From Ariolimax columbianus (taxonomy: Eukaryota; Mollusca; Gastropoda; Stylommatophora; Arionidae), in contig JAVGWX010000011.1 in NCBI GenBank assembly GCA_036924085.1, forward strand, positions 32,052,386-32,116,385: DNA of 64,000 bases, in the 5' to 3' direction. The notes beneath the pieces are model-generated. The model searched no databases, was not told the origin of the DNA, and worked only from the letters and a program-made list of their open reading frames with translations. Shown here piece by piece: positions 15,262-62,904 of the stretch. Numbering within the stretch: position 1 is the first letter of the stretch; each line of letters opens with the position of its first letter. Made by a program: the position numbers and the translations under genes.

Positions 15262-17484
15262 ATAATAATAGCTGTCCATCGTTGTCGATGAGGACCGCCG
15301 ACATCATCCTTGTCACAGATTTCCCTGTTGGGTGAGGGTGTGCATGTGGCTGAACAGGCCAATGCGAGCACGAAAACATCTGCTACATATCGGGCACACG
15401 AGGTTTGTAGAAGGGGATGGTGTTCCCGCTGGTCGGGATTTCCGCGTCTCGCGTCTGTTCTGGGCTTTCACAACACGGTAATCTTCACCGGCAGCTACAC
15501 CCGATTTGACTGCACTTCTCCAGTCAGATCTGTTTTTCGCAAGACATTCCCAGGTGTCGAAGTCTATCTGGCAACGTTTTAGTGAGTCCTTCAGACCGTC
15601 TTTAAAACGTTTCTTTGGGCGCCCTCTCTCGCGCCATCCGTCTCTCAGCTCGCCGTAGAGAAGCTTCTTTGGGAGCCGCTCGTCTGACATACGGACGAGG
15701 TGTCCGGCCCATCCTAGTCGTGCTTTTTCTAGCAGTGCATGTATGCTGGGCATGTTAGCCCTCGAGAGAACTTCGATGTCAGTGACACGATCTTGCCATC
15801 GGATGTGGAATATTCGCCTGAGGCAACCTGTGTGGAAGTGGTTTAACCTCCTTGCATGTCCAGAGTATACAGTCCAGCTTTCGCAAGCGTATAGTAGGGT
15901 TGGAATGATGGTTGCACGGTAGACTTTCAATTTGGTCTTGACGCTGATGCCACGACGTGCCCAGACCATCGAGCGCATTCTATCAAAGGCTGTGCTGGCC
16001 TTTGCTATTCTGCTTGCCCCCTCATCGTCTAGGCTGACAGATCTCGACAGCGTGCTGCCCATTTATGTGAATTTGTCTACGGCATTCAACGTCTGCCCGC
16101 TGACTGTAGTCTCTGGTTTTGTGTACGGCATGCCTGGTGCTGGTTGGTACATGACCTCTGTTTTTTTGGCATTTATGGTCAGGCCAAAATTTTCGCATGC
16201 GGCAGAGAACTGGTCTATTCCAACCTGCATGTTCAGTTCTGAGTTGCTCATTAGAGCACAGTCGTCAGCAAATACAAGTTCCCTGATTATGTCGCCAACC
16301 ACTTTGGTTTTGGCCTTCATTCTTCTGGAATTGAGTAACTTGCCATCTGTGCGGTACTTTATGGGTATTCCAAGCTCCAATGATCTGAAGGCGTCTGTCA
16401 TCGTGGCCGCGAACATCATGCTGAACAAAGTCGGGGCGAGTACACATCCTTGTTTTACTCCGTTTGATACTAGAAACGTTTTAGAGATTGCACCGCTGTC
16501 CAGTACACGAGCACACATGCCTTCGTGTAGCTGTTTCACCATTGTTATGAACTTGTTGGGGCAGCCAAACTTAGACATTATCATCCACAGCCCTCCTCTG
16601 TTTACTGTATCAAATGCCTTTGTCAAATCAATAAATGTGGTGTACAAGGCCTGATTTTGCTCTCGACACTTCTCTTGTACTTGGCGAGCGGCAAAAATCA
16701 TGTCCACTGTTCCTCTTCCGGCTCTGAATCCACATTGGCTTTCTGGGAGGTGGTGGCTTTGTTCAAGGTGTTTGTTGAGCCTGTTTAGCAGTAAGCGCGT
16801 TAGGATCTTGCCTGCTACGAAGAGTAGCGATATTCCTCGATGATTGTCGCATTCCTGACGATTGCCTTTTCTTTTGTATAGGTGAACGATTCAGGCGTCC
16901 TTTAGCTCCTGCGGAATTTTACCTTCAGCCCACATGTGACAGAAGAGTTCAGTGATCCTTCTGGTGAGGGATGGGCCAGCTGTCTTATATACCTCTGCTG
17001 GTATTGCATCAGCTCCTGGAGCTTTTCCTATAGATAGTGAACTGATTGCCCTGTCGACTTCCTCCTCAGTAATGACTTCATCCAACGCCAGGTTCAGTTC
17101 CACCTGCGGCATTCGCCGGATGGCCTCTTTATTTATGGACGATGGGTGGTTTAGTATTTTGCAGAAGTGGTCTGCCCATCTGTCTAGAATCTGAACCTTA
17201 TCTGTTAGCAGTACCCCATCCGCACTGCGAACTGGAGTATTACTAGAGGGCTGCGGGCCGTAGAGAGCTTTCAGTGCCCCGTAAAACCGTTTGGTGTCAT
17301 GACGCTCGGCGAACATCTCAATTTCGTCGGCTCTTTTGCTGAGCCAGGAGTCTTGCATCTCTCTAAGCCTGGTCTGGACAGCTTTGCGAGCAGTATTGAA
17401 CGCAGCTTTTGCTGTCGGAGATGGTGTGTCCCTCTGGTATTCCCTGTGCGCTTCATGTTTTGCATCGAGAAGGCCACCCTCCTA
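15262..17484 (-). mobile_element. Family B LINE, 5'-truncated ORF2 with two nonsense codons
   Basis: One continuous frame of about 724 codons runs from about 17,484 down to the stop at 15,313, interrupted only by TGA (16,891-16,893) and TAA (16,063-16,065). It covers the linker (LSKRADEIEMFAERHDTKRF), reverse transcriptase (GKAPGADAIPAEVYK, SQCGFRAGRGTVD, FIDLTKAFDTVN, NGVKQGCVLAPTLFS, FADDCAL), thumb (YACESWTVYSGH), and the terminal part LGWAGHLVRMSDERLPKKLL and GRPKKRFKDGLKD. It ends with a Cys/His finger (CPICSRCF, then SHMHT). The 3' UTR is about 45 nt and the tail is (ATT)n. Both stops are single-base changes from the expected residue, so this is a fairly young insertion. It is truncated at its 5' end inside the linker; the same truncated end also starts the second direct repeat at 28,268. 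Confidence 0.93.
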
Positions 17485-17865
17485 GAGTTCTATTAACTTC
17501 TCTGGCTATCTTGTCACTCTGTCAATCTAAATATGACAGCCTGATCTCAAATTATCTGTCACTCAATACCTCTATCCCTTTTCTCTAGTTAATGAACCCT
17601 AGTTGATGCAGAAAATGGGATGGTCCAGTCCCTCCACCATTTTTAACCTCGCGTTCCATCTCTAGAACCCTTTTGTCTCCAACTGAAGGAGGTGACCAGC
17701 CAGAAGACTACATTCTGTTCTAAGTGCTAAACATGCATAGCTGACCCTACATTAAGAAAATCACTCACATTATACGGCATTCTATATGTTTATATAACAC
17801 TAGATTTTGTTCTTTTTTGTCTACACAACAGATGTATGCAGGCACATTAGGGAGAATGTAATGCT

Positions 17866-19013
17866 CACATGTGACATGTTCATTGACTCACAGCTAACTT
17901 GATTTACACTATGTTCAATGACTCACAACAAACTTGATTTACACCATGTTCATTAACTCACAACAAACTTGATTTACACCATGTTCATTGACTCACAACA
18001 AACTTGATTTACACCATGTTCATTGACTCACAACAAACTTGATTTACACCATGTTCATTAACTCACAACAAACTTGATTTACACCATGTTCATTGACTCA
18101 CAACAAACTTGATTTACACCATGTTCATTGACTCACAACAAACTTGATTTACACCATGTTCATTGACTCACAACAAACTTGATTTACACCATGTTCATTG
18201 ACTCACAACAAACTTGATTTACTCCATGTTCATTGACTCAAAACAAACTCGATTTACACCTTGTTCATTGGCTCACAGCTAACTTGATTTACACTATGTT
18301 CAGTGACTCACAACTAACTTTATTTACACTATGTTCAGTGACTCACAACTTACTTGGTTTACACTATGTTCAGTGACTCACAACTTACTTGGTTTACACT
18401 ATGTTCAGTGACTCACATCTAACTTGATTTACACTATGTTCAGTGACTCACAACTTACTTGATTTACACTATGTTCTGTGACTTGCAACTTACTTGGTTT
18501 ACACTATGTTCAATGACTCACAACTTACTTGATTTTCACTATGTTTAGTGACTCACACTAACTTTTTTTTTTGGGTGTGTGTTAGACTTATTTCTCTAAT
18601 CTTCAAGGCAGTGTGCGTTGCACTGTGGTTTTTATTTTGTGCTTGTCAGCCCAGTGCATCCAACTTCAGCATGCATTTTATGTAAGGATCTGCTTCCTCC
18701 TGCATTTTCTAAGGGTTTGCTTCCCTGGGGTAACGATTGGTACTGTGATGGGGATCAAACCCAGCACCTTTGGGTTGTAAGCCCTGTCACTTAAGCACTA
18801 GTCCATGCAGTCCCCATAACTAACCTGATTTACAATATGTGCCAGTGACTCACATCTAACTTGAGTTACACTATGTTCAGTGACTCACATCTAACTTGAT
18901 TTACACTATGTTCAGTGACTCACATCTAACTTGATTTACACTATGTTCAAGGACTCACAGCTAACTTGATTTACACTATGTTCAGGGACTCACAGCTAAC
19001 TTGATCGAGGTCC
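17866..19013. repeat. 35-bp minisatellite, split by a SINE (left copy)
   Basis: The unit is close to ACACCATGTTCATTGACTCA plus CAACAAACTTGATTT. It is homogeneous in the first third and more divergent later (CAGTGACTCACAACTTACTTGG types). The array is interrupted at 18,563-18,815 by a SINE and resumes to about 19,013. Confidence 0.95.
18563..18815 (-). mobile_element. tRNA-derived SINE inside the 35-bp array (left copy)
   Basis: On the minus strand the 5' end reads GGGGACTGCATGGACTAGTG and about 50 nt later GGTTTGATCCCC, which fits an RNA polymerase III B box, with a weaker A box (TGGACTAGTGC). A unique body of about 180 nt follows and the element ends in A10. ACTAAC occurs on both sides (18,557-18,562 and 18,819-18,824), a candidate short target duplication. 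A second identical copy lies in the right direct repeat. Confidence 0.7.
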
Positions 19014-19609
19014 ACCATGAATATTCACTCACAGGCTAGTGATTTGATATCAGTTAATTACTGTTTACTTCCCTTTGTGTGAAAGGTAACCCTTTGGCTG
19101 TTTAGGTCAGTATTTGCAGCTGTTTTCTTTTAGTTCAGATGTTTTGACTCTTTCTTATATTCTTTCTCACTTAATAATAAATGTATAACGTTGCTAGCTG
19201 CAACTTTCAGATCTGTGAACTCAAACCTCTCAGATATATTTGACACACAAACATCAACTATATCTAAAGCTACCAGCACAACTCTGTAATACCATTATAT
19301 ATGTGGACAGTTATATGACTTATTGAAAGCCAGAGTAATAGTAATAAGATGGCAAAGAAAATCTGGCATGGATGAAGTAAAACCAGATATTATCAGCTAC
19401 CATTATCTGTCATTACTGGCACTTTCATCATCACCATCAAGTGTCATGCCAAGTGTTGATATATTTCTTCTATAACCATCTTTGACCACATCAGAACTTA
19501 AGATGCTGTTTGCTCGCATCCAGTTTGTCATGCTATCTTCTTTCCCTGTCTTCTTCTTTCCCTGTCTTCTTCATTCTTCTCATGTTCTAGTTTTCCTGCT
19601 GTATGCAGA
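19014..19609. other. No recognisable feature (duplicated segment)
   Basis: AT-rich sequence with no exon or element that I can name. It is repeated at about 29,824-30,429. Confidence 0.5.
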
Positions 19610-19965
19610 ATACATGCAATGAAAATGAGGTGCTTTAGAAGACTCTTAAATGTTACATAAAAGGATAGTGTCAGGAAAGTAAAAATACAACGAAGAGTGG
19701 AAAACACAATTGGGCCTTTTGATGATCTGTTCACGGCTATCAATAGGCAAAAGATGGCTTGGTATGGGTACGTCACAAGGTCCAGTGGAATTACAAATTC
19801 GAAACGGCTTGGTTCCATACCCGGAAAGAGAAGGCAGAGATGGGCAAACCTTCATCCCGGTGAGGCACGACTGGCGGCAGTGGACAGAGAGAGATGGCAT
19901 GGGAGTGTCTTCAAGTGTGCTCCAACGACCTGATGAGTTACGGGAACTGAAACTGATCAAGGTTT
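19610..19965 (+). mobile_element. Family G LINE, 3'-terminal fragment (left copy)
   Basis: This matches the end of the copy at 48,600-50,512: CATGCAATGAAAATGAGGTG, then GPFDDLFTAINRQKMAWYG and the RPDELR end. The first part has a frame break. It finishes in GAACTGAAACTGATC, related to the (TGAAC)n-type tail of family G. Only the last ~110 codons are present. Confidence 0.85.
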
Positions 19966-20020
19966 TCTAGACTTATTTTCTTTTTATTTTTATTAACTGT
20001 GATAGTTTCGTATAATTTTC

Positions 20021-20250
20021 TTAGCTGTCCATGGTATTTGACACTCTCTGCATGGTCCAATCCTTGCTCAAAATGGAGTGTACCGAACTAATGTTTATCC
20101 CCACGTCATCCTCAAGTTCTCGGATGGTGACAAGACAGTTCTGCATGACTGAAGTCCACACTTGGTCAATGACCTTGTCATTTTGGCTTGTTGAGGGACT
20201 ACTAGAACGTAGTTTGCTCTCCACTGATGTGCGGCCATCTTTAAAGCGTT
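20021..20250 (-). pseudogene. Mariner-like transposase, N-terminal HTH relic (left copy)
   Basis: The minus-strand frame gives RFKDGRTSVESK, SPSTSQNDKVID, then TIRELEDDVGINISSVHSIL and MQRVS. These are the hallmarks of the paired helix-turn-helix region at the N-terminus of mariner/SETMAR-type transposases (GRPSTS, then TIRELxxxxGISxGSVHxIL). The frame stops at about 20,021 and no catalytic DDD/E domain follows, so this is a fragment. It abuts the C-terminal remnant of a LINE on the same strand. A duplicate is at 30,841-31,070. Confidence 0.75.
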
Positions 20251-20296
20251 AGTCAAGCAATTCACAACATCCCACCAGCATACACGGTCCTGGGCT

Positions 20297-20889
20297 GCTC
20301 TTTCTGTCTCTCTCCAGGAGTAATCATTTAATCTAAGTTCTTTCTGTCTCTCTCCAGGAGTAATCATTTAATCTAAGTTCTTTCTGTCTCTCTCCAGGAG
20401 TAATCATTTAATCTAAGTTCTTTCTGTCTCTCTCCAGGAGTAATCATTTAATCTAAGTTCTTTCTGTCTCTCTCCAGGAGTAATCATTTAATCTAAGTTC
20501 TTTCTGTCTCTCTCCAGGAGTAATCATTTAATCTAAGTTCTTTCTGTCTCTCTCCAGGAGTAATCATTTAATCTAAGTTCTTTCTGTCTCTCTCCAGGAG
20601 TAATCATTTAATCTAAGTTCTTTCTGTCTCTCTCCAGGAGTAATCATTTAATCTAAGTTCTTTCTGTCTCTCTCCAGGAGTAATCATTTAATCTAAGTTC
20701 TTTCTGTCTCTCTCCAGGAGTAATCATTTAATCTAAGTTCTTTCTGTCTCTCTCCAGGAGTAATCATTTAATCTAAGTTCTTTCTGTCTCTCTCCAGGAG
20801 TAATCATTTAATCTAAGTTCTTTCTGTCTCTCTCCAGGAGTAATCATTTAATCTAAGTTCTTTCTGTCTCTCTCCAGGAGTAATCATTT
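20297..20889. repeat. 40-bp minisatellite, about 15 units (left copy)
   Basis: The unit TTTCTGTCTCTCTCCAGGAG plus TAATCATTTAATCTAAGTTC is nearly perfect in every copy. On the minus strand one unit encodes ELRLNDYSWRETE, in frame with RAAQDRVCWWDVV at 20,262-20,300. It therefore derives from the C-terminal coding region of a LINE (the same LINE continues at 31,721-31,990 beyond the right copy). The array ends abruptly at TAATCATTT, where the (GAA)n tail of the family A LINE starts. Confidence 0.95.
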
Positions 20890-20916
20890 CTTCTTCTTCT
20901 TCTTCTGCGTACACAG

Positions 20917-23900
20917 TCAGACAGTAACCATTATTTTTTCGAAAAAAGCGGCGGTCATCCTGAGACTCTCGCCACTACCATAGAGCTTGTCTTGCAGTTC
21001 CACTGGCAATGGCCACATCTGCTCTCTCTGATCACCGTATGTCGGGCAGTTCTGCAGCAGATGTTCAGTGGTCATTTTACCAGTACCGCACGGGCATTCG
21101 TCGGTACACCCTATCTTTAATTTGTTGAATAGGTGGTACCTCAGTCTATTGTGGCCAGTGCGAAGTCTGAAGACAACGACCTGCTCTCTTCGGTTCAACT
21201 GGTAATAGGCATCGTTTTTGGTGTAACCAGTATGTTCGGTTTCCCATTTGGTAATGTACCTGGCTTTGATAAGCCGTTTTGACTCTTCGTACGTCATACT
21301 GGTATCTGTTTGTGGTAGCCTTGCACCTTCTTTTGCCAGTCTGTCTGCCTCCTCGTTGCCTTGGATGTTGCAGTGTGACGGAACCCACTGTACCACTACC
21401 CTTTTTGGTGCGGACAGCTGGCACAGTTTGCAGAGTGCTGCTCTTAAGTCATTAAGCTCAGTGTTTTTCTGGCTTTTTAGCGCTGTGACTACGGCGAGAG
21501 CATCTGTCAGCAAGACTATGTGGCTCTCATTTTCACTGTGTGTTGCCATTTCTTCCACTGCCGCCCTCAGTGCCTCTGCCTCCGCTCTGAAATTGCTTGT
21601 GTACTTACCAGTAGCGAATGACAGTGTTATTTTTCTGCCATTTGGTAGGTTCAGGAATGCTCCTGCCCCTCCGTTCTGTGTAGTGTCTGTTACAGAACCG
21701 TCGGTGTATGCATGGGTCCAGTCCATGCTTGGGTAGCTTTTCGTTATGAAGCTTAGGGTAGTGTCTCTCCTTTCTTTTTCGGTCTGGCAGTTTTTGTTTG
21801 CAATACCTGGTATATTTTCTACCACCTCTGGAAATATATCCTGCCTCCAAGTAGGTTTTCGTACAGTAGTGATGGGTTTTGGTGTTGTTAGTGCGTTTAT
21901 GGGATCTTCGTGCATCTTTGCTTTGGCTATTTCTGCAAAGTTTCTCCGCTTTAGTTTCCCAGTTCCCAAATTGTTTAGCCTCTGGTACATTGGATGGTCC
22001 GTCAGTCTTCGGAGTTTCTCTGACTGCAGCTGGGCTCTGCAGTCTCTTCTGTCGGTCATGGATTGCAGTTTTGTAATCTTTTCAAGTTCTACAATTGGCG
22101 TTGACTTCATGCCACCTGTTATGATTCTCATGGCTTGGTTTTGAAGTTTGTTAACTTTATCGAAGTTCGCCTTAGCTGCTGTTGTCCATGCCGCGATGCC
22201 ATACTCGAGAACTGGTCTCACTCTTCCAGTGTACAGTTTCTTTAGTATGCCTTCGTCTGCTCCCCAGCTTGTGCCAGCAAGTTTCCTCATGATCGCCATT
22301 CTTTCTCTGGCTTTCATTCGGTTTCTCTCAATCTGACTTTTCCATGTCATGCGCCGATCAAATGTGACTCCCAGATAGGTTGGGTTGTCGTTTGGCTGCA
22401 GGATTTTGCCATTTAGGCTTAATTTGGTACTTTGGGGTTTTAATGAGAGCGAGAATATTGTGCACGTGGTTTTCTCCTCGTTTATTTTGACCAGCCATGA
22501 GTTCGCCCACTCTTCCAGCGATGTTAGGGCCGTTTGCATCCGATTTCTTGCTATAGTGAGATTCTTTTCAGAGGTCCACATAGCCAGATCGTCTGCAAAC
22601 ATTGAGCTATGGACTCTTCTTGGTATATTCTCTGTAATATCGTTTATATATACCAGGAAGAGTGTGGGTGACAGTACTCCCCCTTGGGGTACTCCCTGCT
22701 CGAGTGTCACCTTTTTGCTCATCTGCCCTTGTACTTGGACTCTGGCCGTTCTTTGTTTGAGGTAGTGGTTGATCCACTTGTACATCTTCCCACAAACATC
22801 ACTTCTTCTTAGCTTGACTCTAATTCCATCCTTCCAGACTTTGTCAAATGCCTTTTCCAGATCCACCCAAACAGCTACTGTGTGTTTCTGTGCCTGGTAG
22901 GCATCTTCTATCTCCTGGGCTATGAGGATGACCTGGTCCTCAGTGGATCTGTGCTGTCTAAAGCCGGCTTGCTGTGGAATTAGTATTCGTTTTTCTTCCA
23001 GATGCCACATCAGTCTGGTGTTTATCATCCGTTCCATCAGCTTGCCGACACAGCTCAGTAGGCTTATGGGCCTGTATCCATTCGGATCTGTTTTGTCCTT
23101 TCCTGTTTTTGGTACTGGTACCAGTATTGCATCTTTCCATGCCTGGGGTACAATACCCCTTTTCCAGCTTTGGTTCAGGACTGATAGTAGTTTTTTCTTC
23201 GCTGTTTGGCCCAGCCCCATCAGCATTTCGTTTGTTATCCCGTCTTTTCCGGGAGATTTCCTTCTCTTTAGTGTTCTCATAGCCTCTTCCATTTCGCGCA
23301 TTGTTAGTTTGGCCATCATGTGCTCTTCAGGAGCCGTATTTATGTTTTCGTGCCCCTTTAGCTCTTCGCTAATGTCTGTATGCTTATCTGCAGGGACCTC
23401 GATGTGGTTTGCTCTGGCATAGTGATCGACAAAGGCGTTTGCGGCTTTCTTACCTGTGATCAAGTTCTCGCCTTGCTTGATAGTAATTTGTTTATTTGAC
23501 GGGGTTTCGTCGTTCATGGCTCTGACTAGCTTCCATAGCTTGTTCCCTTCTTTGTCCAGGTTTAAACTTTCCGTTTTATTTTTCCAACTTTCTCTTGCTG
23601 TTTGCTTGAGAGTGTGTTTGTACTTCGCCGCGGCGGCTTTGAGGGCGATGTTTGCCTCCACGGATTTCTCTCGTTCTGCCATGTTCCTAGCATTTGTTAC
23701 TGCATCTTCCACTTTCTGTAACTCATCATTCCAGTAGGGCTTATAGTTTTTCCTAGCTCCTCTTGGGATGGTTTCAGTGGCGGCTTGCATTATTGCCTTG
23801 CTTAGGCTCTCTACCATGGGCTTCATTTTGGTGTTTCGTGTGTTGATGGTTTCACACAGCCCATCTGTCAGGATTGCAAATCTGTCCCAGTCGGCTCGTT

Positions 23901-24825
23901 TGTAATTCCAACGTGGGAGCGGTTTTGTTTCCTGTGGGCCTACTTCCATGTCAATGGTTAGCCTGATCGGCCTGTGGTCGCTACCTGCCAGTTGGTTTAG
24001 CACCTGGCGGTCTATTTTATAGTGTATGTCCTGTGTGGAGAAGGCCAAATCTGGAGTCGAGGTGGTATGCCATGTTCTTGAATAGAAGCTAGGGCTATCC
24101 TCCGGCCTATTGATTAGGGAGAGATTTGCATCTATCTCCCAATCTTCCACTTCGTCACCTCTGCTGTCTGTGTCAGAGTATCCCCATCTCTCCGAGTGGC
24201 TGTTGAAATCTCCAACCACTATGCAGTTGGAGTCTCTGACCTCCATACTCGAGAGCGATAGGTCTCTGTTTGGTGGTCCGTACAGATTGAAAATGCGGAG
24301 CTTCGTCTCTTGAGCCATTATGTCAACTCCTACAATTTCTGCTTGTCCGGTGTGATTGACAGGTACCGCGCTACTCGGTATGCTGTTTCTGGTCAGTATC
24401 AGGACCCCTCCTTTGTGGCCTTCTCTATCTAGACGGAAAGTCTGGTATCCTCTGATTGAGAATTTATGGTTATTGTTGAGGTGCGTTTCCTGGATACATG
24501 CCACGTCAATCTTACCTTCATGCAGGTGATGTGTTAGGGAAAGTTTTTTGTTTATGACTCCCTCCGCATTCCACTGTAATATTTTGAGGGTCTTGAGGTT
24601 TTGGCCAATAGTCGTTTCCCCATAGCCATGTGCCTTGACTCCACGACACATGGGTGGGTGACCACCAGTAGTCAAGGGTGGGCCCCTTCGAGGCGTGGGG
24701 CCCGGCGCTATTGCTGCCTGGCGGGTCTCCTCAGGATGAGCGCCATACGTTTTTCGAATAGGTTGTGCTGCCATCATACTGTGATTTACGTTGCACTGTT
24801 TTGTTAGGCTTGCGGCCCCGTGCAT
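20917..24825 (-). CDS. Family A LINE ORF2: endonuclease - reverse transcriptase - RNase H, intact
   Basis: This 1,302-residue uninterrupted frame encodes a target-primed retrotransposition enzyme. Residues ~80-293 are an APE-type endonuclease (LQWNAEGV, IQETH at 111-115, VVGDFNSHSERWGY around 205, TPDLAF, SDHRPI at 282-287). Reverse transcriptase covers ~500-830: SPGKDGI, GYRPISLL (~583), VDLEKAFD (~654), GVPQGGVLSP (~711) and the catalytic FADD (~743). RNase H spans ~1,036-1,170 with its acidic residues in YTDGS (D1042), RAEAE (E1082), LLTDA (D1108) and GNEEADRLAK (D1161). A terminal C-x3-C-x-C-x8-H-x4-C knuckle lies at ~1,240-1,260. A stop codon lies two codons upstream of the ATG. RNase H plus APE endonuclease points to the I group (I/Nimb-like); the exact clade is not determined. 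No ORF1 is visible upstream. Being intact, it may be recently active. Confidence 0.97.
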   Translation of the reverse strand: MHGAASLTKQCNVNHSMMAAQPIRKTYGAHPEETRQAAIAPGPTPRRGPPLTTGGHPPMCRGVKAHGYGETTIGQNLKTLKILQWNAEGVINKKLSLTHHLHEGKIDVACIQETHLNNNHKFSIRGYQTFRLDREGHKGGVLILTRNSIPSSAVPVNHTGQAEIVGVDIMAQETKLRIFNLYGPPNRDLSLSSMEVRDSNCIVVGDFNSHSERWGYSDTDSRGDEVEDWEIDANLSLINRPEDSPSFYSRTWHTTSTPDLAFSTQDIHYKIDRQVLNQLAGSDHRPIRLTIDMEVGPQETKPLPRWNYKRADWDRFAILTDGLCETINTRNTKMKPMVESLSKAIMQAATETIPRGARKNYKPYWNDELQKVEDAVTNARNMAEREKSVEANIALKAAAAKYKHTLKQTARESWKNKTESLNLDKEGNKLWKLVRAMNDETPSNKQITIKQGENLITGKKAANAFVDHYARANHIEVPADKHTDISEELKGHENINTAPEEHMMAKLTMREMEEAMRTLKRRKSPGKDGITNEMLMGLGQTAKKKLLSVLNQSWKRGIVPQAWKDAILVPVPKTGKDKTDPNGYRPISLLSCVGKLMERMINTRLMWHLEEKRILIPQQAGFRQHRSTEDQVILIAQEIEDAYQAQKHTVAVWVDLEKAFDKVWKDGIRVKLRRSDVCGKMYKWINHYLKQRTARVQVQGQMSKKVTLEQGVPQGGVLSPTLFLVYINDITENIPRRVHSSMFADDLAMWTSEKNLTIARNRMQTALTSLEEWANSWLVKINEEKTTCTIFSLSLKPQSTKLSLNGKILQPNDNPTYLGVTFDRRMTWKSQIERNRMKARERMAIMRKLAGTSWGADEGILKKLYTGRVRPVLEYGIAAWTTAAKANFDKVNKLQNQAMRIITGGMKSTPIVELEKITKLQSMTDRRDCRAQLQSEKLRRLTDHPMYQRLNNLGTGKLKRRNFAEIAKAKMHEDPINALTTPKPITTVRKPTWRQDIFPEVVENIPGIANKNCQTEKERRDTTLSFITKSYPSMDWTHAYTDGSVTDTTQNGGAGAFLNLPNGRKITLSFATGKYTSNFRAEAEALRAAVEEMATHSENESHIVLLTDALAVVTALKSQKNTELNDLRAALCKLCQLSAPKRVVVQWVPSHCNIQGNEEADRLAKEGARLPQTDTSMTYEESKRLIKARYITKWETEHTGYTKNDAYYQLNRREQVVVFRLRTGHNRLRYHLFNKLKIGCTDECPCGTGKMTTEHLLQNCPTYGDQREQMWPLPVELQDKLYGSGESLRMTAAFFEKIMVTV

Positions 24826-25689
24826 CCGATTTCAACAGGCGTTTCTGTAGGGATGCCCTCCTTAGCCTTTGGCTGTCCCCAGCCTATCTGCAAGGCAGCA
24901 GTTGTTTACGATCGGAGTTTTCTCTCCTATGGAAGTTGTCTTACCAGACTATCGAGTCTTCACTACTCGTGTCTATAGGGTGCAATGATGATATGTGATA
25001 TATGAGATGGACTGGTTTACCCGGAAGAGAGGCAGTCCAGTGTGTCTGTATCCCAGGATCGTCACGTCCTGCCAGAAACGTAGCATTTGCATGTGAGTGG
25101 GGTATCTCTTTTTCCCTTTATTTTCTTGGCTTCTATGCAGGGATGGTACGCCTAGCATTCCCCGCCACCTGGGGTGTTGACACAGTGGGGCAGGTGTGCA
25201 ATGTCCGCTGGTCTGCATCTCTTCTGCGTCCAGCATGATAGTTTTGGCTGATAACGTACATGGGTAGATATCGTAGCCGGAGTGCATTTAGCCAGAGGAC
25301 AAGCCTGGTAATGTCACAGAGATGTTGATCGCCTGGTGTGCGGACAACTCTCATGGTCAGTGGTTGAGTCTTGACAGTTCACAGTGTGGTGGCTGCTCTA
25401 CTGTTTTCGACACCCCGACCAGGGTCTAAGTCTTTGGTTGGTGTTTTTCGCACCCCATCGCCGTATAGGGTGAGTATCTAGCAGTTGTCCGCCCGCTTTG
25501 ATTTTCGGGCGGCAAGGACCTCTTACTGTGGCTCTACCTGATAGGGCTGGGGCGCAAGCCCCAGGTCCCGAGCATGTAGGAGCCTCCCATTGCAGTGGTG
25601 CTGAGATTTTGGGCGGGATTTCGGCTTACAAGGGTTCGGCCGTAATCCCCCACATGGTAGCCTCGCGCCCTTGGCTTATCAGCCTGGTA
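24826..25689 (-). other. Leader between 18S-derived repeats and LINE ORF2
   Basis: No gag-like ORF1 with CCHC knuckles is readable here on the minus strand. The stretch contains GC-rich inverted repeats, for example GGGCTTGCGCCCC and CCGCCCG...CGGGCGG near 25,490-25,560, that could fold in RNA. It is probably the 5' UTR of the LINE. Confidence 0.5.
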
Positions 25690-26398
25690 CGTGAACCAAA
25701 GTGTCTGCGGCTCCTCTCGATTTGAGCTCGATTTCCGTAGCAACGCCCTGTCATTTGTAGGGTAAAACTGACCTGTCTTCAGATCTATTTCCAGCACCCG
25801 TTCACTATTTGGTCAGTCGAATTTATTGAGGGCTTTTGTTTGTCAATGACCAGGTATTTGAAATCTGCGGTTTCTGCGGAGTTAAACACGGTTTCCGTAG
25901 CGTTCTTTCATTTGAGTGTTTGAGAGCTGACTTGTCGTCTGTGAGTCTAATACCAGCGTACGTTCATTATTAGACCCAAACGGCAGTGCTCTCGATTTGT
26001 CAGTTGTTCTACAGTATTGGCGCGTTTAGTCAAATTAAGCCGCAAGTTCCACACCTGGTGGTGCCCTTCCGTCAATTCCCTTAGCGAGACAATCAAGTTT
26101 CTTAAAAGGTAGCCCCAAAAATTTTCGGGGGTCTAATTCCAGCACATGTTCTCTATTAGACCCCACGAAGGTGTACTTTTTGATAGTCATTCTGCAGTAT
26201 TGGCGTGGTAAGTTAACTTAGGTCTCAGGCTCCACTCCTGATAGTGCTCTTCCGTCAATTCCTTTATCAGACACTGGATGCAGACAAACCCGAGCCACAG
26301 GCGACATAACCCCAGATTTCTGGGGGTCTAAGTCCAGCACCAGTTCCATATTAGACCCCAGAAGTGTGGTCTCGGCATGTCAATCATTTCAGTGTTGG
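25690..26398 (-). repeat. Degenerate ~190-bp tandem repeats built from 18S rRNA and a conserved hairpin
   Basis: On the minus strand the bona fide 18S segment AAAGGAATTGACGG...CAACACGG (26,399-26,462) is followed by a non-rRNA spacer and then by further, diverged copies of the same 18S segment at 26,205-26,267 and 26,020-26,082. TCAATTCC recurs at 26,451, 26,256 and 26,072 (plus-strand coordinates), spacings 195 and 184. Each spacer carries GGTCTAA ... TTAGACC inverted arms (26,321-26,360; 26,127-26,164; 25,942-25,977). Two more degraded units seem to continue to about 25,690. Confidence 0.82.
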
Positions 26399-26422
26399 CC
26401 GTGTTGAGTCAAATTAAGCCGC

Positions 26423-26471
<49 letters not shown>

Positions 26472-27637
26472 TTTGCAACCATACTTCCCCCGGAACCCAA
26501 ACACTTTGGTTTCCCGGAAGCTGCCCGCAGAGTCATCGAAGCAACTCCTGCGGATCGCTAGTCGGCATCGTTTATGGTCAGAACTACGACGGTATCTGAT
26601 CGTCTTCGCGCCTCTGACTTTCGTTCTTGATTAATGAAAACATTCTTGACAAATGCTTTCGCAGTAGCTCGTCTTGCGGCGATCCAAGAATTTCACCTCT
26701 AACGCCGCAATACGAATGCCCCCGTTTGTCCCTGTTAATCATTACCTCCAGTTCCGAAAACCAACAAAATAGAACCGAGGTCCTATTCCATTATTCCATG
26801 CACCATTATTCAGGCAGCCGAGGCCTGCTTTGAACACTCTAATTTTTTCAAAGTAAACGCGCCGGCCACCCAGGACGCTCAGCGAAGAGCACCCGTGGGA
26901 GAGAGCCGGCAGACGGTAGGGCAGGAGACAACGGGCAGTGAACCGGCGCGAGCCGGACCGCCCGCCTGCGCCTGAGATCCAACTACGAGCTTTTTAACTG
27001 CAACAACTTTAATATACGCTATTGGAGCTGGAATTACCGCGGCTGCTGGCACCAGACTTGCCCTCCAATAGATCCTCGTTAAAGGGTTTAAAGTGTACTC
27101 ATTCCAATTACGGGGCCTCGAAAGAGTCCCGTATTGTTATTTTTCGTCACTACCTCCCCGTGCCGGGAGTGGGTAAGTTGCGCGCCTGCTGCCTTCCTTG
27201 GATGTGGTAGCCGTTTCTCATGCTCCCTCTCCGGAATCGAACCCTGATTCCCCGTTACCCGTTACAAACATGGTAGGCATGTCACGTACCATCGACATTT
27301 GATAGGGCAGACATTTGAAAGATGCGTCGCCGGCACATGAGGCCATGCGATCAGCACAAAGTTATCCAGAGTCACCAGTGGGGACGCCGCAACCCCGCGA
27401 GGGGAAACGACGATTGGTTTTGAACTAATAAAAGCGCTCTTTCCGCGAGGGTCGGAGCTTGGTAAGCATGTATTAGCTCTAGAATTGCCACAGTTATCCA
27501 AGTAGGATCGTGTCATCTAAGGAACCTCGACTGATTTAATGAGCCATTCGCGGTTTCACCGTGAGACAGTGTGAACTTAGACATGCATGGCTTAATCTTT
27601 GAGACAAGCATATGACTACTGGCAGGATCAACCAGAT
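26399..27637 (-). rRNA. 18S (small-subunit) rRNA, 5' two-thirds only
   Basis: The 5' end TATCTGGTTGATCCTGCC lies at about 27,637 and is followed in order by AGCCATGCATGTCTAAG, the 530-loop GCCGCGGTAATTCCAGCTCC (about 27,040) and AAAGCTCGTAGTTGGAT. The V4 region and the 900-region AACTTAAAGGAATTGACGG (about 26,455) come next. Similarity to a normal 18S ends at CTCAACACGG (26,399), so roughly the last third of the gene is missing, along with ITS, 5.8S and 28S. The retained conserved segments look undamaged, so the piece is recent. It cannot make a functional rRNA. It has the same orientation as the downstream LINE. Confidence 0.97.
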
Positions 27638-28267
27638 ATCTGTCGGAGACGTACGTACTGCGCACACCGGTCGGCGGAGGAAGGGTGTGTAAAAAGCCTC
27701 ACTGGGACGGCCGCAGGGACCGACTGACGGGACGGACGGACGGTTGTTCCACCCGTCCCTCACTCCGTCGACCTAGGACCGCCTGACAGGGGCCTCCCAC
27801 ACGCACCAGACGACCGACCGACCGGGCTCGCTCGAGGAGGGATGGCAGCGCTCTGTGCAGAACGGATCCCAACGACCTCGGCGACGAATTTCACTGGGAC
27901 CAGAGACACAATTTGGCCTGCCCTTCTCCGTAGGGAGAGAACGCAGGGCCTCGAGGCAACGATTCCTGCTTTCCATTTGCCGGTCACAAGCTCTTTGCGA
28001 GAGTCGGACCACCAGCGAGACGTACTGTCGAGCTCTGCTATAAGCCTTAGATAAATAACCAGGGACGGACCACGTTTCCTGATACGGACCAGACTAGCGC
28101 ACCTCGGTGGAGGAGCCACTACCACAAACCGCACCCAATTCGCACTACGGGGAAAGGCAGGCGAGCGTTTTCCGCAAGCCCGCGCTATCGCTCCGCCTGG
28201 CGGGACTGAGATCGCTTTACGAACACTGGATGAAATTGAGTCGCTGCGGCGAGACAACTACCCCAGA
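27638..28267 (-). other. Putative 5' external transcribed spacer of rDNA
   Basis: GC-rich sequence with short repeats (GGACGGACGGACGG) lies directly upstream of the 18S 5' end, the place where the 5' ETS sits in an rDNA unit. It ends abruptly at 28,267, where the right direct repeat begins. The call rests on position and composition, since ETS sequence is not conserved enough to recognise. Confidence 0.65.
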
Positions 28268-28438
28268 GAACATCTCAATTTCGTCGGCTCTTTTGCTGAG
28301 CCAGGAGTCTTGCATCTCTCTAAGCCTGGTCTGGACAGCTTTGCGAGCAGTATTGAACGCAGCTTTTGCTGTCGGAGATGGTGTGTCCCTCTGGTATTCC
28401 CTGTGCGCTTCATGTTTTGCATCGAGAAGGCCACCCTC
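28268..28438 (-). mobile_element. Family B LINE, 170-bp linker fragment (right copy)
   Basis: Identical to 17,311-17,481. It consists of the 5'-truncated tip of the LINE that is present in full at 15,262-17,484, and its own 3' part is absent because the direct repeat begins here. Confidence 0.93.
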
Positions 28439-28823
28439 CTAGAGTTCTATTAACTTCTCTGGCTATCTTGTCACTCTGTCAATCTAAATATGACAGCCTG
28501 ATCTCAAATTATCTGTCACTCAATACCTCTATCCATTTTCTCTAGTTAATGAACCCTAGTTGATGCAGAAAATGGGATGGTCCAGTCCCTCCACCATTTT
28601 TAACCTCGCGTTCCATCTCTAGAACCCTTTTGTCTCCAACTGAAGGAGGTGACCAGCCAGAAGACTACATTCTGTTCTAAGTGCTAAACATGCATAGCTG
28701 ACCCTACATTAAGAAAATCACTCACATTATACGGCATTCTATATGTTTATATAACACTAGATTTTGTTCTTTTTTGTCTACACAACAGATGTATGCAGGC
28801 ACATTAGGGAGAATGTAATGCTC

Positions 28824-29823
28824 ACATGTGACATGTTCATTGACTCACAGCTAACTTGATTTACACTATGTTCAATGACTCACAACAAACTTGATTTACA
28901 CCATGTTCATTAACTCACAACAAACTTGATTTACACCATGTTCATTGACTCACAACAAACTTGATTTACACCATGTTCATTGACTCACAACAAACTTGAT
29001 TTACACCATGTTCATTGACTCACAACAAACTTGATTTACTCCATGTTCATTGACTCAAAACAAACTCGATTTACACCTTGTTCATTGGCTCACAGCTAAC
29101 TTGATTTACACTATGTTCAGTGACTCACAACTAACTTTATTTACACTATGTTCAGTGACTCACAACTTACTTGGTTTACACTATGTTCAGTGACTCACAA
29201 CTTACTTGGTTTACACTATGTTCAGTGACTCACATCTAACTTGATTTACACTATGTTCAGTGACTCACAACTTACTTGATTTACACTATGTTCTGTGACT
29301 TGCAACTTACTTGGTTTACACTATGTTCAATGACTCACAACTTACTTGATTTTCACTATGTTTAGTGACTCACACTAAATTTTTTTTTTGGGTGTGTGTT
29401 AGACTTATTTCTCTAATCTTCAAGGCAGTGTGCGTTGCACTGTGGTTTTTATTTTGTGCTTGTCAGCCCAGTGCATCCAACTTCAGCATGCATTTTATGT
29501 AAGGATCTGCTTCCTCCTGCATTTTCTAAGGGTTTGCTTCCCTGGGGTAACGATTGGTACTGTGATGGGGATCAAACCCAGCACCTTTGGGTTGTAAGCC
29601 CTGTCACTTAAGCACTAGTCCATGCAGTCCCCATAACTAACCTGATTTACAATATGTGCCAGTGACTCACATCTAACTTGAGTTACACTATGTTCAGTGA
29701 CTCACATCTAACTTGATTTACACTATGTTCAGTGACTCACATCTAACTTGATTTACACTATGTTCAAGGACTCACAGCTAACTTGATTTACACTATGTTC
29801 AGGGACTCACAGCTAACTTGATC
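28824..29823. repeat. 35-bp minisatellite, split by a SINE (right copy)
   Basis: Same array as at 17,866-19,013 but four units shorter, with the SINE at 29,380-29,635 in the same place. Confidence 0.95.
29380..29635 (-). mobile_element. tRNA-derived SINE (right copy)
   Basis: Duplicate of the SINE at 18,563-18,815, with the same B-box-like GGTTTGATCCCC and A-tail. One difference at the tail junction is AAAT here against AACT in the left copy. Confidence 0.7.
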
Positions 29824-30429
29824 GAGGTCCACCATGAATATTCACTCACAGGCTAGTGATTTGATATCAGTTAATTACTGTTTACTTCCCTTTGTGTGAA
29901 AGGTAACCCTTTGGCTGTTTAGGTCAGTATTTGCAGCTGTTTTCTTTTAGTTCAGATGTTTTGACTCTTTCTTATATTCTTTCTCACTTAATAATAAATG
30001 TATAACGTTGCTAGCTGCAACTTTCAGATCTGTGAACTCAAACCTCTCAGATATATTTGACACACAAACATCAACTATATCTAAAGCTACCAGCACAACT
30101 CTGTAATACCATTATATATGTGGACAGTTATATGACTTATTGAAAGCCAGAGTAATAGTAATAAGATGGCAAAGAAAATCTGGCATGGATGAAGTAAAAC
30201 CAGATATTATCAGCTACCATTATCTGTCATTACTGGCACTTTCATCATCACCATCAAGTGTCATGCCAAGTGTTGATATATTTCTTCTATAACCATCTTT
30301 GACCACATCAGAACTTAAGATGCTGTTTGCTCGCATCCAGTTTGTCATGCTATCTTCTTTCCCTGTCTTCTTCTTTCCCTGTCTTCTTCATTCTTCTCAT
30401 GTTCTAGTTTTCCTGCTGTATGCAGAATA

Positions 30430-30788
30430 CATGCAATGAAAATGAGGTGCTTTAGAAGACTCTTAAATGTTACATAAAAGGATAGTGTCAGGAAAGTAAA
30501 AATACAACGAAGAGTGGAAAACACAATTGGGCCTTTTGATGATCTGTTCACGGCTATCAATAGGCAAAAGATGGCTTGGTATGGGTACGTCACAAGGTCC
30601 AGTGGAATTACAAATTCGAAACGGCTTGGTTCCATACCCGGAAAGAGAAGGCAGAGATGGGCAAACCTTCATCCCGGTGAGGCACGACTGGCGGCAGTGG
30701 ACAGAGAGAGATGGCATGGGAGTGTCTTCAAGTGTGCTCCAACGACCTGATGAGTTACGGGATGAACTGAAACTGATCAAGGTTTTCT
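30430..30788 (+). mobile_element. Family G LINE, 3'-terminal fragment (right copy)
   Basis: Duplicate of 19,610-19,965. This copy retains CGGGATGAACTGAAAC, where the left copy has lost three bases, so the terminal residues RDEL are still readable. Confidence 0.85.
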
Positions 30789-30840
30789 AGACTTATCTTC
30801 TTTTTATTTTTATTAACTGTGATAGTTTCGTATAATTTTC

Positions 30841-31070
30841 TTAGCTGTCCATGGTATTTGACACTCTCTGCATGGTCCAATCCTTGCTCAAAATGGAGTG
30901 TACCGAACTAATGTTTATCCCCACGTCATCCTCAAGTTCTCGGATGGTGACAAGACAGTTCTGCATGACTGAAGTCCACACTTGGTCAATGACCTTGTCA
31001 TTTTGGCTTGTTGAGGGACTACTAGAACGTAGTTTGCTCTCCACTGATGTGCGGCCATCTTTAAAGCGTT
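30841..31070 (-). pseudogene. Mariner-like transposase HTH relic (right copy)
   Basis: Duplicate of 20,021-20,250 with the same open frame (TIRELEDDVGINISSVHSIL) and the same end. Confidence 0.75.
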
Positions 31071-31084
31071 AGTCAAGCAATTCA

Positions 31085-31990
31085 CAACATCCCACCAGCA
31101 TACATGGTCCTGGGCTGCTCTTTCTGTCTCTCTCCAGGAGTAATCATTTAATCTAAGTTCTTTCTGTCTCTCTCCAGGAGTAATCATTTAATCTAAGTTC
31201 TTTCTGTCTCTCTCCAGGAGTAATCATTTAATCTAAGTTCTTTCTGTCTCTCTCCAGGAGTAATCATTTAATCTAAGTTCTTTCTGTCTCTCTCCAGGAG
31301 TAATCATTTAATCTAAGTTCTTTCTGTCTCTCTCCAGGAGTAATCATTTAATCTAAGTTCTTTCTGTCTCTCTCCAGGAGTAATCATTTAATCTAAGTTC
31401 TTTCTGTCTCTCTCCAGGAGTAATCATTTAATCTAAGTTCTTTCTGTCTCTCTCCAGGAGTAATCATTTAATCTAAGTTCTTTCTGTCTCTCTCCAGGAG
31501 TAATCATTTAATCTAAGTTCTTTCTGTCTCTCTCCAGGAGTAATCATTTAATCTAAGTTCTTTCTGTCTCTCTCCAGGAGTAATCATTTAATCTAAGTTC
31601 TTTCTGTCTCTCTCCAGGAGTAATCATTTAATCTAAGTTCTTTCTGTCTCTCTCCAGGAGTAATCATTTAATCTAAGTTTTTTCTGTCTCTCTCCAGGAG
31701 TAATCATTTAATCTAAGTTCCTTCTCACATTCTCTGCTACATGTATTTTTGGGTCTACTTCTCTGAGCATTCCCATTAGCCTGTCTGGCTATGTTGGACG
31801 GTGTCTTTCATAGGTTATGTCATATCCAGCCCCATTTTCTTCATTTAGCTTGTTGTTTCAGTGGCTGTTGTTGGCTCCTTTCACATAGCACATTCCTTAC
31901 CTTGTCCTGCCACTTTATGTTATCCTTCGTTCGCATCTGTTAACGAAGGACTAGAATGTTTGTTGTATGGCCTTGGTCGTTCTCAGTGTT
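31085..31990 (-). mobile_element. LINE C-terminal fragment containing the expanded 40-bp array
   Basis: Read on the minus strand from about 31,990: a worn coding segment with KDNIKWQDKVRNVL and SRECEK leads into the 40-bp array (31,720-31,117, about 15 units, each encoding ELRLNDYSWRETE). It then continues as RAAQDHVCWWDVVNCL (about 31,117-31,085). This matches the usual LINE ending in which a W-x(n)-E...A-x-DR-x-x-W block closes ORF2. The array is therefore an expansion of one short coding segment; because 40 is not a multiple of three, the frame is destroyed. The family is not one of A-G. Confidence 0.7.
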
Positions 31991-37699: not shown

Positions 37700-40600
37700 G
37701 GCAAGCTAGGTCAAAATACAGTGGGGAAGGACACGTCACCTTTGTATACAGATCGAACACAATCCGAGAGGCGGAAATGGATCTTAAAACTTGGAACGTG
37801 GAATGTTAGGACCATGTGTCCTGGAACTGACATCCACAGAGTGACTCAGGACACATACACAAGGTTCCTCCAGGACAGATGCAGCCACATCCATCTCTAC
37901 AACAGACCAACTTACTGACCGTCTGTCAAGACTCAAAAGGCCATAACTAACTGTACAATGTGTATCTAAGTTACTGTGTTCACTATTAATATACGTTCAT
38001 GTGAACATTGAAAGGGGTGTAGCGAGGTCTGGGCTGGACGAGAGTAGGACTTCGAGAGCAAACGCAGACAGAAAATCCCGAGTGGTAGCGCCTAAGGCGG
38101 ATGGTTTCAAAATTGCGACTCATTCCGGCAGCTCCAGCAGCTGAGCTGGTGCCAAATTGTCATGCTTTACATTCCTTTGGATTACACCAGTGAGGTCGAG
38201 AGGGGGATCCTGCAGTTTGGGCAGCCCAAGGTCTTCATATTTAGCGCCCAGGCTTGTGTCCTGGAGAGGCTACTCTAATTACTCCAGCCTCGCTCTTGCG
38301 TGAGGAAACAGCACGGAAGCTGGGAGTTTACTGGTTAAAAGTCCCACCCGATTGGCGTGGGGAAGGGGCGCCACGGGTCAGCTTCGACGGTGTGAGGGAT
38401 CATCGCTTCTCATTGGTCGACTACAGCCGGGCAGCCCCCGGTCAGTGGGTGTCGACTCACCAATATGTGCATGCATGACAAGCGGATGTTAATATTGCAC
38501 CAAAAAAAACTAAAATTAAAAAGAAAACTCCAATCGATCCTCATTCGGAGGGCTCTGAGAGGTTACTGACCCTTCGTCTTATCACCGCTACATGTCGTTA
38601 TCTTCAGCGTCTATGCCCTGACATCTCCGGAGGTAGCGAAGGATCAATTCTATGGTCAGCTGAAGGTAATGATTAATAACAGCCCCAGAGATGAAGCACT
38701 CATCCTTCTAGGCGACTTTAATGTTAGAGTGGGTGGGGACCACAACGCATGGCCCACCTGCCTTGAACATCATGGTATTATCAGGGTAAATGACAATTCT
38801 CAAAGGTTGCTGGAGCTGTGCACTCAACCAGGTCGATGTATCACAAATACTTTCTTCAAGGGCAGGCCACAACATAAAGTATCATGGAAACACCCAAGGT
38901 CACGTCGATGGCATCAAATCGACTTGATTGTCACCAGAAGTTCAGCTCTAAACGTGGTCCTCTCCACTAGAAGCTATCACAGTGCAGACTGTGACTGGCA
39001 ATGCACTTGTATGTAGCTGGGTACGCTTGCAGCTTCGCAAAATATGCCGCTCCAAACAGATGGGGCATCCCCGCATCAACACTGCACAGATGATGATTCC
39101 TTTCAAGGCGGAGAGATTTGTGTCTGACCTGAATCTTGCTGTCCAGGGAGGATCTGAGTGTGACGCCACAGCTAAGTGGAACGTAATGAAAGTTGCCATC
39201 TATAATACAGCATTAGCTATGATTGGCATGAGGGAACGGGCCAATCACGACTGGTTCAATGCATATCTCGCAAGAATGGAACCAGTAATTTAGGCCAAGA
39301 GAGAAGCTTTCATCAATTGTTTTTAAAAAGCCAAATGAGAGGACGCTTGCTGCCCTCAGGATACCCTGGGGCATCAATCAACGAACTGTTAGACAATGCG
39401 CGAATGAGTACTGGCAGAAACTGTGTGAAGAAATTCAGCTAAAGAGACAAGAAACATCCATGGCAATAATAGGGACATAAAGATGGCACTGGGCCCTACT
39501 GCGAGAGGTGATGCCCCCTGAAATCACTGACAGGTGCGAGAATCATGGACCGTGACCATCAGATGGCCAGATGAGTGGAGCACTACTCTGAGCTCTACTC
39601 TCGGGAAATAGTGGTCACTGATAAAGCCTTGTACAGGCTACAGGCCCTGCCCATTATGGAGGAACTTGACAGACCACCTACTCTGAATGAGGTTGATAAG
39701 ACTATCAACTACCTCAGAAATGGCAAAGCACCAGGGGGAGATGGTATCCCACCTGAAGCCATCAAATGCGGAAAATCTGCACTAGCTCAGCCGATGTTTG
39801 ATCTTCTATGTCTCTGCTGGGAGGAAGGTGCAGTCACCCAAGATATGCGTGACGCCATCATTGTGCTTTTTACAAAAACAAAGGTGACGGCGGGGACTGC
39901 TATAAATATAGAGGGATCTCGCCCCTGAGCGTTGTATGCAAAGTTTACGCCCGCATGGTACTTAACAGGTTGAGACTGCTCGCGGACAGGGTGTACACAG
40001 AATCCCAGTGTGGCTTTAGAGTAGGTTGATCAACAACGGATAGGATTTTCTCGCTTCTACAAATTCAGTAGAAGTGCAGAGAGCAAGACCAGCCACGCAG
40101 AATGATGTTTCTAGACCTCACCAATGCCTTCGACTTGGTCAGTAGAAAGGGACTATTCAAACTCCTCCAGAAGGCTGCCTCCCCCCCCCCCCCCCATACA
40201 ACTGCATAGCATGAAAATTTCCTTTCACACTGATATGAAGGGCTCAGTTCTATACAATGGATCATCTTCAAACTCTTTTCCCTTCAAGAGTGAAGTGAAG
40301 CAGGGATGTGTGCCAGCGCCGACACTCTTTTGGATCTTCTTCTCCATGCTCCTATCGTACACTTATGACACATCTGTGGGCGGTGTTTATCTGCACACCA
40401 GGTCAGATGGACGGCTGTTTAACCTGTCCTGACTGCGTGCGAGGATAAAGGTGAGGACGGTGCTCAATGGGGACATGCCATTTGCGGATGATGCAGTTCT
40501 GGTGACAAATAGTGAAATAGTGAGGAGGCCTTGCAGAAACTGGGAGACAGATTCGCCGAGAGTTGTAAGCAGCCTGGTCTGGAAAAGACAAAGGTCTGCG

Positions 40601-41330
40601 CACAGGGCATTACCACTACGTCATCCGTAAAGATTGATGGCGTCACTCTGGAGGTCGTCAACAGTTTCACTTATCTGGGGTCTGCCATCAGCAACACTCT
40701 CTCGCTCGAGAAGGAGATAGACAGTAGGCTTGGCAGGGCAAGTACCGTCATGGCCCGCCTGACGAAGAGAGTCTGGGAAAACACTGCGCTGTCTCACTAC
40801 ACCAAGGTCCGGGTCTATCAGACCTGCGTTCTTGGCACTCTCGTGTATGGAAGCGAGACTTGAAGCACTTATACTAAACAAGAACGGTGGCTGAATATCT
40901 TTCACATGAGGTGTCAACGGCGTATATTGGGGATTGGGTGGTAAGACAGAGTGTGTCACATAATATAGTTTTATAGAGGGCAAACACTCACAGCATGTGC
41001 TCGATATTGAGCCAGCGACGTCTACGGTGGTTGGGACATGTTTATCGTATGTAAGACGGCTAAATGATATCCTTTATGCACAGTTAGTCCTTGAAGTTAG
41101 AAGTATCGGCCGTCCCACACTGCGATTCAAGGACAAATGCAAGAGAGACACATGAGACATCCCATTCGAGGGCTGGGAAGAAATTGCTCAGGATCAAGCT
41201 ATCTGGAGACAGTAAGTTGGAGGGAGAGAGCGGATCGAATCCCCGATATGGCATATGCTGTTTTACTGTTGCCAACACACGACCTGGTGACAGCAATGGC
41301 GAAACGACCTGCAGTCTGTGCCTAAAAACC
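37700..41330 (+). mobile_element. Family E LINE, long relic on the plus strand of the temptin intron
   Basis: The N-terminal endonuclease motif LGTWNVRTMCPG is at 37,780-37,830. After a ~700-bp gap holding a GC-rich block come SVYALTSPEVAKDQF and LILLGDFNVRVGGDHNAWP (38,690-38,760), then NTFFKGRPQHKVSW and WHQIDLIVTR. The reverse transcriptase follows: GKAPGGDGIPPEAIKCGKSA (39,720-39,780), MMFLDLTNAFDLVSRKG (40,100), VKQGCVPAPTLF (40,300) and PFADDAVLVT (40,480). The thumb reads FTYLGSAISNTLSLE and VLGTLVYGSET. Several frameshifts and a C15 run at about 40,185 break the frame. The C-terminal Cys/His finger seen in the minus-strand sister (54,361-56,470) is not readable here. Confidence 0.9.
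38010..38510 (+). repeat. GC-rich block with A-rich end inside the family E LINE
   Basis: A compositionally distinct segment contains GGATCCTGCAGTTTGGGCAG and TCACCAATATGTGCATGCATG, and finishes in AAAAAAAACTAAAATTAAAA. It separates the first endonuclease motif from the rest of the endonuclease. It may be the 5' leader of a second family E copy abutting the first, or an inserted SINE. I cannot decide. Confidence 0.45.
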
Positions 41331-52025: not shown

Positions 52026-52253
52026 TAAACTGTAAAGAGTCGAGAAATCCATCGTGAAGAAAATTCATTTGAGTATATTGGAGATGCCAGAGCTTAGAGA
52101 GGACCAGAAATTTGAAGCGGACCACAACCTCTTGATAATAGAGAGAACAACCGAAAGACTAGCCCCGCCAAAGCAACATCTACAATTAAGTAAGAAACCA
52201 AACACCAGAAAAGGAAAAGCAAGAATAAAGGCCTTACAACCAAGAGATCAGCA

Positions 52254-62398: not shown

Positions 62399-62561
62399 GT
62401 AGATTATGCCCTCAAAGTAGAATTCACTCGATTTGTCCGAATTTGTCTGTCTTCTCGGAAAATAGATGTTTTCTGCCGATTCTTCTGCGTTCGCATTGAA
62501 AAGGACAATGAAACACGGGTATATTGTGGTTTGCAGCGAGGTTGCGATATCTGCACCTTTC

Positions 62562-62892: not shown

Positions 62893-62904
62893 TCTGCACC
62901 TTTC

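Follow-up and report, generated by a model that had tools for sequence, protein, structure and literature searches.

We show that the 64-kb window, i.e., the whole stretch of DNA analysed here, harbors a composite insert (20890-28267, minus strand) in which, from 5' to 3', about 630 nt of likely 5' external transcribed spacer (ETS), nucleotides 1-1237 of the 18S rRNA, a leader, an intact LINE ORF encoding EN, RT and RNase H, and finally a (GAA)5 tail are fused. It is highly probable that the composite was a pre-rRNA/LINE chimera inserted in one TPRT event. The insert is continuous from the LINE tail to the putative ETS, with no break. The original prediction had described such an ETS-18S-leader-LINE-tail arrangement in one orientation, and the Rfam and Pfam matches, the open reading frame and the tail bear this out on the minus strand. 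Its two borders, 20890 and 28267, prove to be exactly where a direct duplication of ~3.5 kb has its inner ends. The features are listed in Table 1.

Table 1 Features of the composite insert, its flanking duplication and a related LINE copy in the window.
Feature	Coordinates	Strand	Basis or remark
Left copy of the target-site duplication; outer (left) junction ancestral	17311-20889	.	Self-comparison, alignment
(GAA)5 3' tail, joined to target ATCATTT	20890-20904	-	Sequence
LINE ORF (EN, RT, RNase H); stop-to-stop frame of 1,304 codons	20917-24831	-	ORF list, Pfam
Degraded 28S 3'-end block, hairpin h4 25811-25782	25346-25849	-	Rfam, alignment with L007
Module 3: 18S-like core 26083-26021 and segment 26020-25850, hairpin h3 25973-25945	25850-26083	-	
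Module 2: 18S-like core 26266-26204 and segment 26203-26084, hairpin h2 26159-26130	26084-26266	-	
Module 1: 18S core 26462-26399 and segment 26398-26267, hairpin h1 26354-26325	26267-26462	-	
18S rRNA nt 1-1237 (5' part)	26399-27635	-	Rfam; alignment with L003 to CACGG
Putative 5' ETS (632 nt)	27636-28267	-	Position 5' of 18S, GC (inferred)
Right copy of the target-site duplication; outer end runs natively into the rest of a 40-bp array	28268-31709	.	
5'-truncated copy of the composite's LINE, same tail	62561-62893	-	TSD 10-12 bp (62551-62560 / 62894-62903)

The 18S part was identified by an Rfam match to SSU_rRNA_eukarya at 27635-26491 on the minus strand (950 bits, model positions 4-1116), which a second match to the same model extends at 26489-26462 (26.5 bits). 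For scale, these model positions give 983 bits with the 18S of another eukaryote (L001). Alignment with the animal-like 18S of L003 (92.7% over 411 columns) carries the 18S further, to 26399, where it ends in ...GACTCAACACGG after 1,237 nt in total; its first nucleotide could be as much as 3 nt further 5', at 27638. In a comparison that addressed whether this 18S is an old pseudogene, made with five distant eukaryotes, none of them a close relative, the 18S of the composite deviates at 57 of 700 otherwise invariant columns, and the same measure gives 1, 11, 18, 46 and 109 deviations in 644-752 columns for the five eukaryotes themselves (five of seven loci; L002 and L003, both without the 5' half, were omitted). 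The adjoining 27636-28267 has a GC content of ~57-65%, versus 34-46% just outside, and its place directly 5' of the 18S together with this composition marks it as putative 5' ETS. The putative ETS and the 18S make up an rRNA cargo of ~1.87 kb upstream of the leader. Rfam matched no other 18S or 28S elsewhere in the window, and the ETS stretch did not recur among the best 60 self-comparison pieces of at least 150 bp within it.

The LINE ORF (24831-20917) is stop-free throughout and likely starts at MMAAQP near 24777. Pfam recognizes an APE-type endonuclease (PF14529/PF03372), a reverse transcriptase (PF00078) and an RNase H (PF00075), and these domains, together with the accessible part of PMC11203168, suggest that the element is of I-superfamily type. 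Of 7,987 candidates scored in a protein search with residues 440-960, 601 matched with an E value of at most 0.001; among the best 120 of these 601, the top matches were contigs at 69-71% identity and gastropod proteins, including those of Littorina saxatilis (56%) and Batillaria (56%), so that the host is probably a gastropod. Scans of viral contigs for related DNA returned no relative. According to the ORF list, the leader holds no ORF1-like frame of at least 120 codons, and the longest ATG frame within it on the LINE strand has 104 codons. With regard to a 5' self-cleaving ribozyme of the R2 type, Rfam gave no ribozyme match, and an HDV-like descriptor scan of the junction, run without a positive control, gave 0 matches, likewise 0 in 20 of 20 shuffles. 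At the other end, the tail adjoins the border 20889/20890, and the target side of the 3' junction reads ATCATTT|AATC, corresponding to a TTT|AA nick.

In a self-comparison of the window, 17311-20889 recurs in direct orientation at 28268-31709, and the insert takes up precisely the space between the two copies. Their global alignment comprises 3,434 identities and 5 substitutions (5/3,439 aligned bases, 0.15%), with two internal gaps of 140 bases (four 35-base repeat units) and 3 bases; the 16 bases at 31710-31725 lie outside the duplication. An older LINE fragment at 16909-17475, which matches 6867-7434 at 83%, runs unbroken across 17310/17311, whereas in the right copy it begins only at the insert border (28272-28432 versus 7274-7434, 86%). 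Because the older LINE is intact at 17310/17311 and cut at 28268, the outer junction on the left must predate the event, and only the two insert ends are newly formed junctions. The exact flanking duplication and the polarity of the older LINE thus indicate that the composite was inserted whole at a TTT|AA nick and that this produced a target-site duplication (TSD) of ~3.5 kb, outside the usual L1 range. A single event is further supported by the LINE-type 3' junction and by a tail like that of the copy at 62561-62893. The duplication and the 3' junction likewise support the earlier proposal that ETS, 18S and LINE were integrated whole by reverse transcription outside rDNA. With flanks that differ at only 5 of 3,439 bases, the insertion appears to be young, unless the flanks are alleles. 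Two other explanations of the flanks were rejected. The flanking tandem repeats are not the intergenic spacer of a deleted rDNA unit, given, within the window, the lack of other Rfam 18S/28S matches and of a second ETS copy among the best 60 self-comparison pieces, and the continuity of the older LINE across 17310/17311. A tandem duplication that came first and received the LINE at its joint later would demand a base-exact coincidence.

Two further copies of the family occur in the window, both outside rDNA (2/2), and neither reaches the leader. The copy at 62561-62893 is 98.2% identical over 333 bp, with a nick at CACCTTT|CAAC; it is a TPRT insertion with an ordinary TSD, against which the ~3.5 kb duplicated around the composite can be compared within one window. 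The copy at 1-1343, compared with the ORF over 434 codons, gives dS 0.25, dN 0.034 and dN/dS 0.138, indicating long-standing selection on the protein of this family. These copies, the flanking duplication and the rRNA origin of the leader were all absent from the original prediction.

The leader had previously been regarded as repeat-rich. The repeats are indeed there (self-matches of 70.6% and 76.9%, module starts spaced 196 and 183 bp), and the leader is additionally rRNA-derived, which had been missed. Three modules occupy insert positions 1806-2418, with the 3' end of the third segment (25850) set by hand, and each opens with 63-64 nt of 18S that start with TAAAGG or TAAGGG and end with CACG(G) or CGCG. 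Core 1, which is at the same time the end of the fresh 18S and thus common to both, is identical to the L003 18S at 63/63 positions; identity to this 18S is 83.9% for core 2 and 90.3% for core 3. Differences amount to 10/63 between cores 1 and 2, 6/63 between cores 1 and 3, and 15 between cores 2 and 3, counts that leave no derived base common to cores 2 and 3. The old cores share their 18S end point (CACG) with the fresh 18S. As the flanks are only 0.15% apart, the 10-16% divergence of cores 2 and 3 from 18S is older than the insertion of the composite; these cores diverged earlier, in the lineage of the LINE or in another source.

The segments that follow the cores are 72-78% similar to one another. 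That they represent the next part of 18S was rejected: the best of 15 tests was matched by 9/300 shuffles and the other 14 by 32-282/300 (three segments against five of seven loci; L001 was not entered and L004 was too short). Their sequences appear to fit 28S better than 18S. The hairpin strings h1-h4, picked after broader 28S alignments had been inspected, all align best to positions 232-259 of the 3' part of the L007 28S (0, 0, 0 and 2 of 500 shuffles), a stretch that we take to be the A-loop region of 28S, and show no likeness to four other rRNA targets (at best 79/500 shuffles). Tests of whole segments against 28S were weaker than those of the hairpins (23, 1, 76 and 0 of 500 shuffles). 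The start of the leader after CACGG is itself 28S-like. For the block of ~500 nt after module 3, sequence comparison argues firmly for a 28S origin: Rfam places an LSU match at 25749-25346 on the minus strand (68.6 bits, E 6e-14, model 3005-3399 of 3401, i.e., the 28S 3' end), and 25849-25615 aligns with the L007 28S at a score of 133.5 versus at most 58 in 200 shuffles. No Rfam LSU match reaches into the modules, and an 18S core of a fourth module is unsupported in sense or inverted (186 and 46 of 300 shuffles, respectively). The fold of the module is ordinary (z -1.02; 34/200 shuffles equally stable), and folding the three modules to a consensus gave an unfavourable covariation term (+0.89), with 7/41 pairs altered on both sides.

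As to the origin of the fusion, our tentative preference, which we rate at slightly less than an even chance, is that the reverse transcriptase of the LINE switched templates onto pre-rRNA. The 5' UTR of the LINE would bear tandem 18S/28S-derived modules, and a reverse transcriptase copying it would reach module 1 and jump to a pre-rRNA at the matching 18S segment, after which the 18S and the 5' ETS would be copied, perhaps up to the 5' end of that RNA. The second strand might then be primed ~3.5 kb off at a nick or break, or on the sister chromatid, resulting in the very long TSD. The perfect identity of core 1 to 18S is a point against such a switch, given that some LINE-specific bases would usually persist after a switch within a diverged core carried by the LINE; therefore, any switch must have taken place right at the 3' edge of the core or close to it. 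This edge is the same 18S position at which the old cores end, a coincidence for which transcription through an 18S-inserted element needs no extra assumption.

Such read-through was the model of the original prediction, in which an 18S gene carries a LINE copy after CACGG and the Pol I read-through RNA is reverse transcribed whole and integrated elsewhere. We consider it rather unlikely, and retain it because the fresh 18S ends together with both old cores and core 1 carries no LINE-specific difference. Precedents in the accessible portions of the R1 and R2 literature point the same way: R1 copies outside 28S may bear 7-28 bp of upstream 28S (PMC2718515), and duplicated 28S can extend R2 5' ends (PMC3774820). 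However, the leader mixes 18S-like with 28S-like pieces and is already 28S-like right after CACGG, and the family is dispersed outside rDNA in the window. Moreover, at the 18S site, for a TSD of 10-18 bp, the best nick is ATT|AA at 17 bp, with no better TTT|AA-like one by eye. Template switching is slightly preferred over read-through on account of the LINE's own 18S-like segments within an rRNA-mosaic leader and the dispersed family.

An assembly chimera, in which LINE-bearing and LINE-free haplotypes were misjoined at 28267/28268 to create a false duplication, is quite unlikely. The flanking copies do differ as alleles might, by 5 substitutions and by the length of the repeat array, but the misjoin would have to sit at the ETS-like end, where there is neither common sequence nor N, and at the 3' border the LINE ends in a regular junction like that of the second copy (62561-62893). 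Least probable is that rDNA and a LINE had recombined earlier at the DNA level, an exchange that the 18S-like leader segments could have mediated, and that the chimeric master copy was then transcribed and retrotransposed normally, as no second ETS-18S-LINE fusion exists within the 64-kb window.

The 5' UTR of mouse L1 consists of tandem monomers, which the ~200-bp tandem modules in the putative 5' UTR of this LINE resemble, except that the segments here are rRNA-derived. R7 and R8 are LINEs inserted in 18S, and the composite is like them in that LINE sequence is joined to 18S in sense, although an 18S-resident copy of its own LINE is hypothetical. A further difference is that R8 of Hydra belongs to the R2 group, according to the available parts of PMC3636483 and PMC5035012. 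For R2, template jumps onto U12 and tRNA are described in the accessible text of PMC3414825. To the extent covered by the available sections of PMC2718515, PMC3774820 and PMC3414825, R1 and R2 resemble the composite in carrying or duplicating adjoining rRNA at the 5' end of the element and in jumping to other RNAs; in contrast, those elements are 28S-specific with short extra pieces, whereas the family of the composite is dispersed and its 18S source copy is hypothetical.

LINE-1 chimeras with structural RNAs comprise U6/L1, 5S/L1 and 28S/L1 in the accessible part of PMC13174262, where the 28S pieces of 28S/LINE-1 chimeras are 50-482 nt long and 83% are in sense, with a template switch or RNA ligation as the proposed origin. 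The composite is similar to these 28S/L1 chimeras in that an RNA is joined in sense orientation to the 5' end of a LINE in a single TPRT insertion. Unlike the L1 chimeras, in which the 28S is short and 18S is not among the RNAs named in that part of the source, it contains ~1.87 kb of ETS and 18S, and it also has a leader, an intact ORF and a ~3.5-kb TSD. Regarding the latter, the available portion of PMC5223499 gives a usual L1 TSD of 5-30 bp, whereas in HeLa no more than 10% of insertions have TSDs of over 100 bp and NER-deficient cells show kilobase TSDs as exceptions, and one L1 insertion led to a 22.6-Mb tandem duplication (PMC7058536, in the part accessible). The composite shares with these insertions a kilobase-or-larger direct duplication beside a LINE at an EN-type site (PMC5223499, PMC7058536). 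In contrast to these cases from repair-deficient cells, HeLa and tumours, at least as those sources are excerpted here, it is found in an assembled animal-type genome and bears rRNA.

If real, the composite holds the longest rRNA cargo on a LINE insertion known to us (~1.87 kb), compared with 50-482 nt for 28S/LINE-1 (PMC13174262) and with the 7-28 bp carried by R1 copies located outside 28S (PMC2718515) in the accessible parts of these sources, and searches of the open-licence PMC literature listed no ETS-18S-LINE insertion. It would also represent a natural case of kilobase TSD formation, a process otherwise described, in the material available from the literature cited above, in cultured cells and tumours. 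A leader built from rRNA pieces opens the question of whether the 5' UTRs of some LINEs evolve by rRNA capture. On a speculative note, and with a likelihood that we put lower still than that of read-through, a LINE family could have a 5' UTR of tandem rRNA modules, each pairing an 18S segment with a 28S A-loop-like hairpin, followed by a 28S 3' block. Such modules would time and again offer its reverse transcriptase a homologous site on pre-rRNA at which to land, its 5' end being repeatedly renewed with rRNA, and Pol I transcription or the recruitment of ribosomes might be co-opted as well.

The LINE family of the composite insert is also represented at the start of the window, where an incomplete copy, broken at 1875, runs off the window start and matches the ORF region of the composite LINE at 93%. 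Compared with the intact ORF over 434 codons, this copy yields a dN/dS of 0.138. A third repeat forms an inverted pair (84% identity over 1.9 kb) that contains frames which, judged by eye, look like reverse transcriptase.

Repeats in the window
Feature	Positions
LINE copy, composite's family	1-1875
Older LINE	5924-7434, 16002-17475
Third repeat	39330-41224, 54592-56434
Minisatellite arrays	17875-18564, 20299-20889, 44058-44490, 44862-45468, 52253-52545, 59619-60128, 63308-63797

Minisatellites with units of 20-40 bp are numerous, and the array at 20299-20889 is built of 40-bp units with between-unit matches of 100%. Separately, eukaryotic rDNA is present in seven bacterial genome records (L001-L007), probably as contamination.

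Window self-comparison revealed another, older LINE in two copies (80%). Its second copy spans the left border of the duplication flanking the composite insert, and this crossing gives the polarity of the event.
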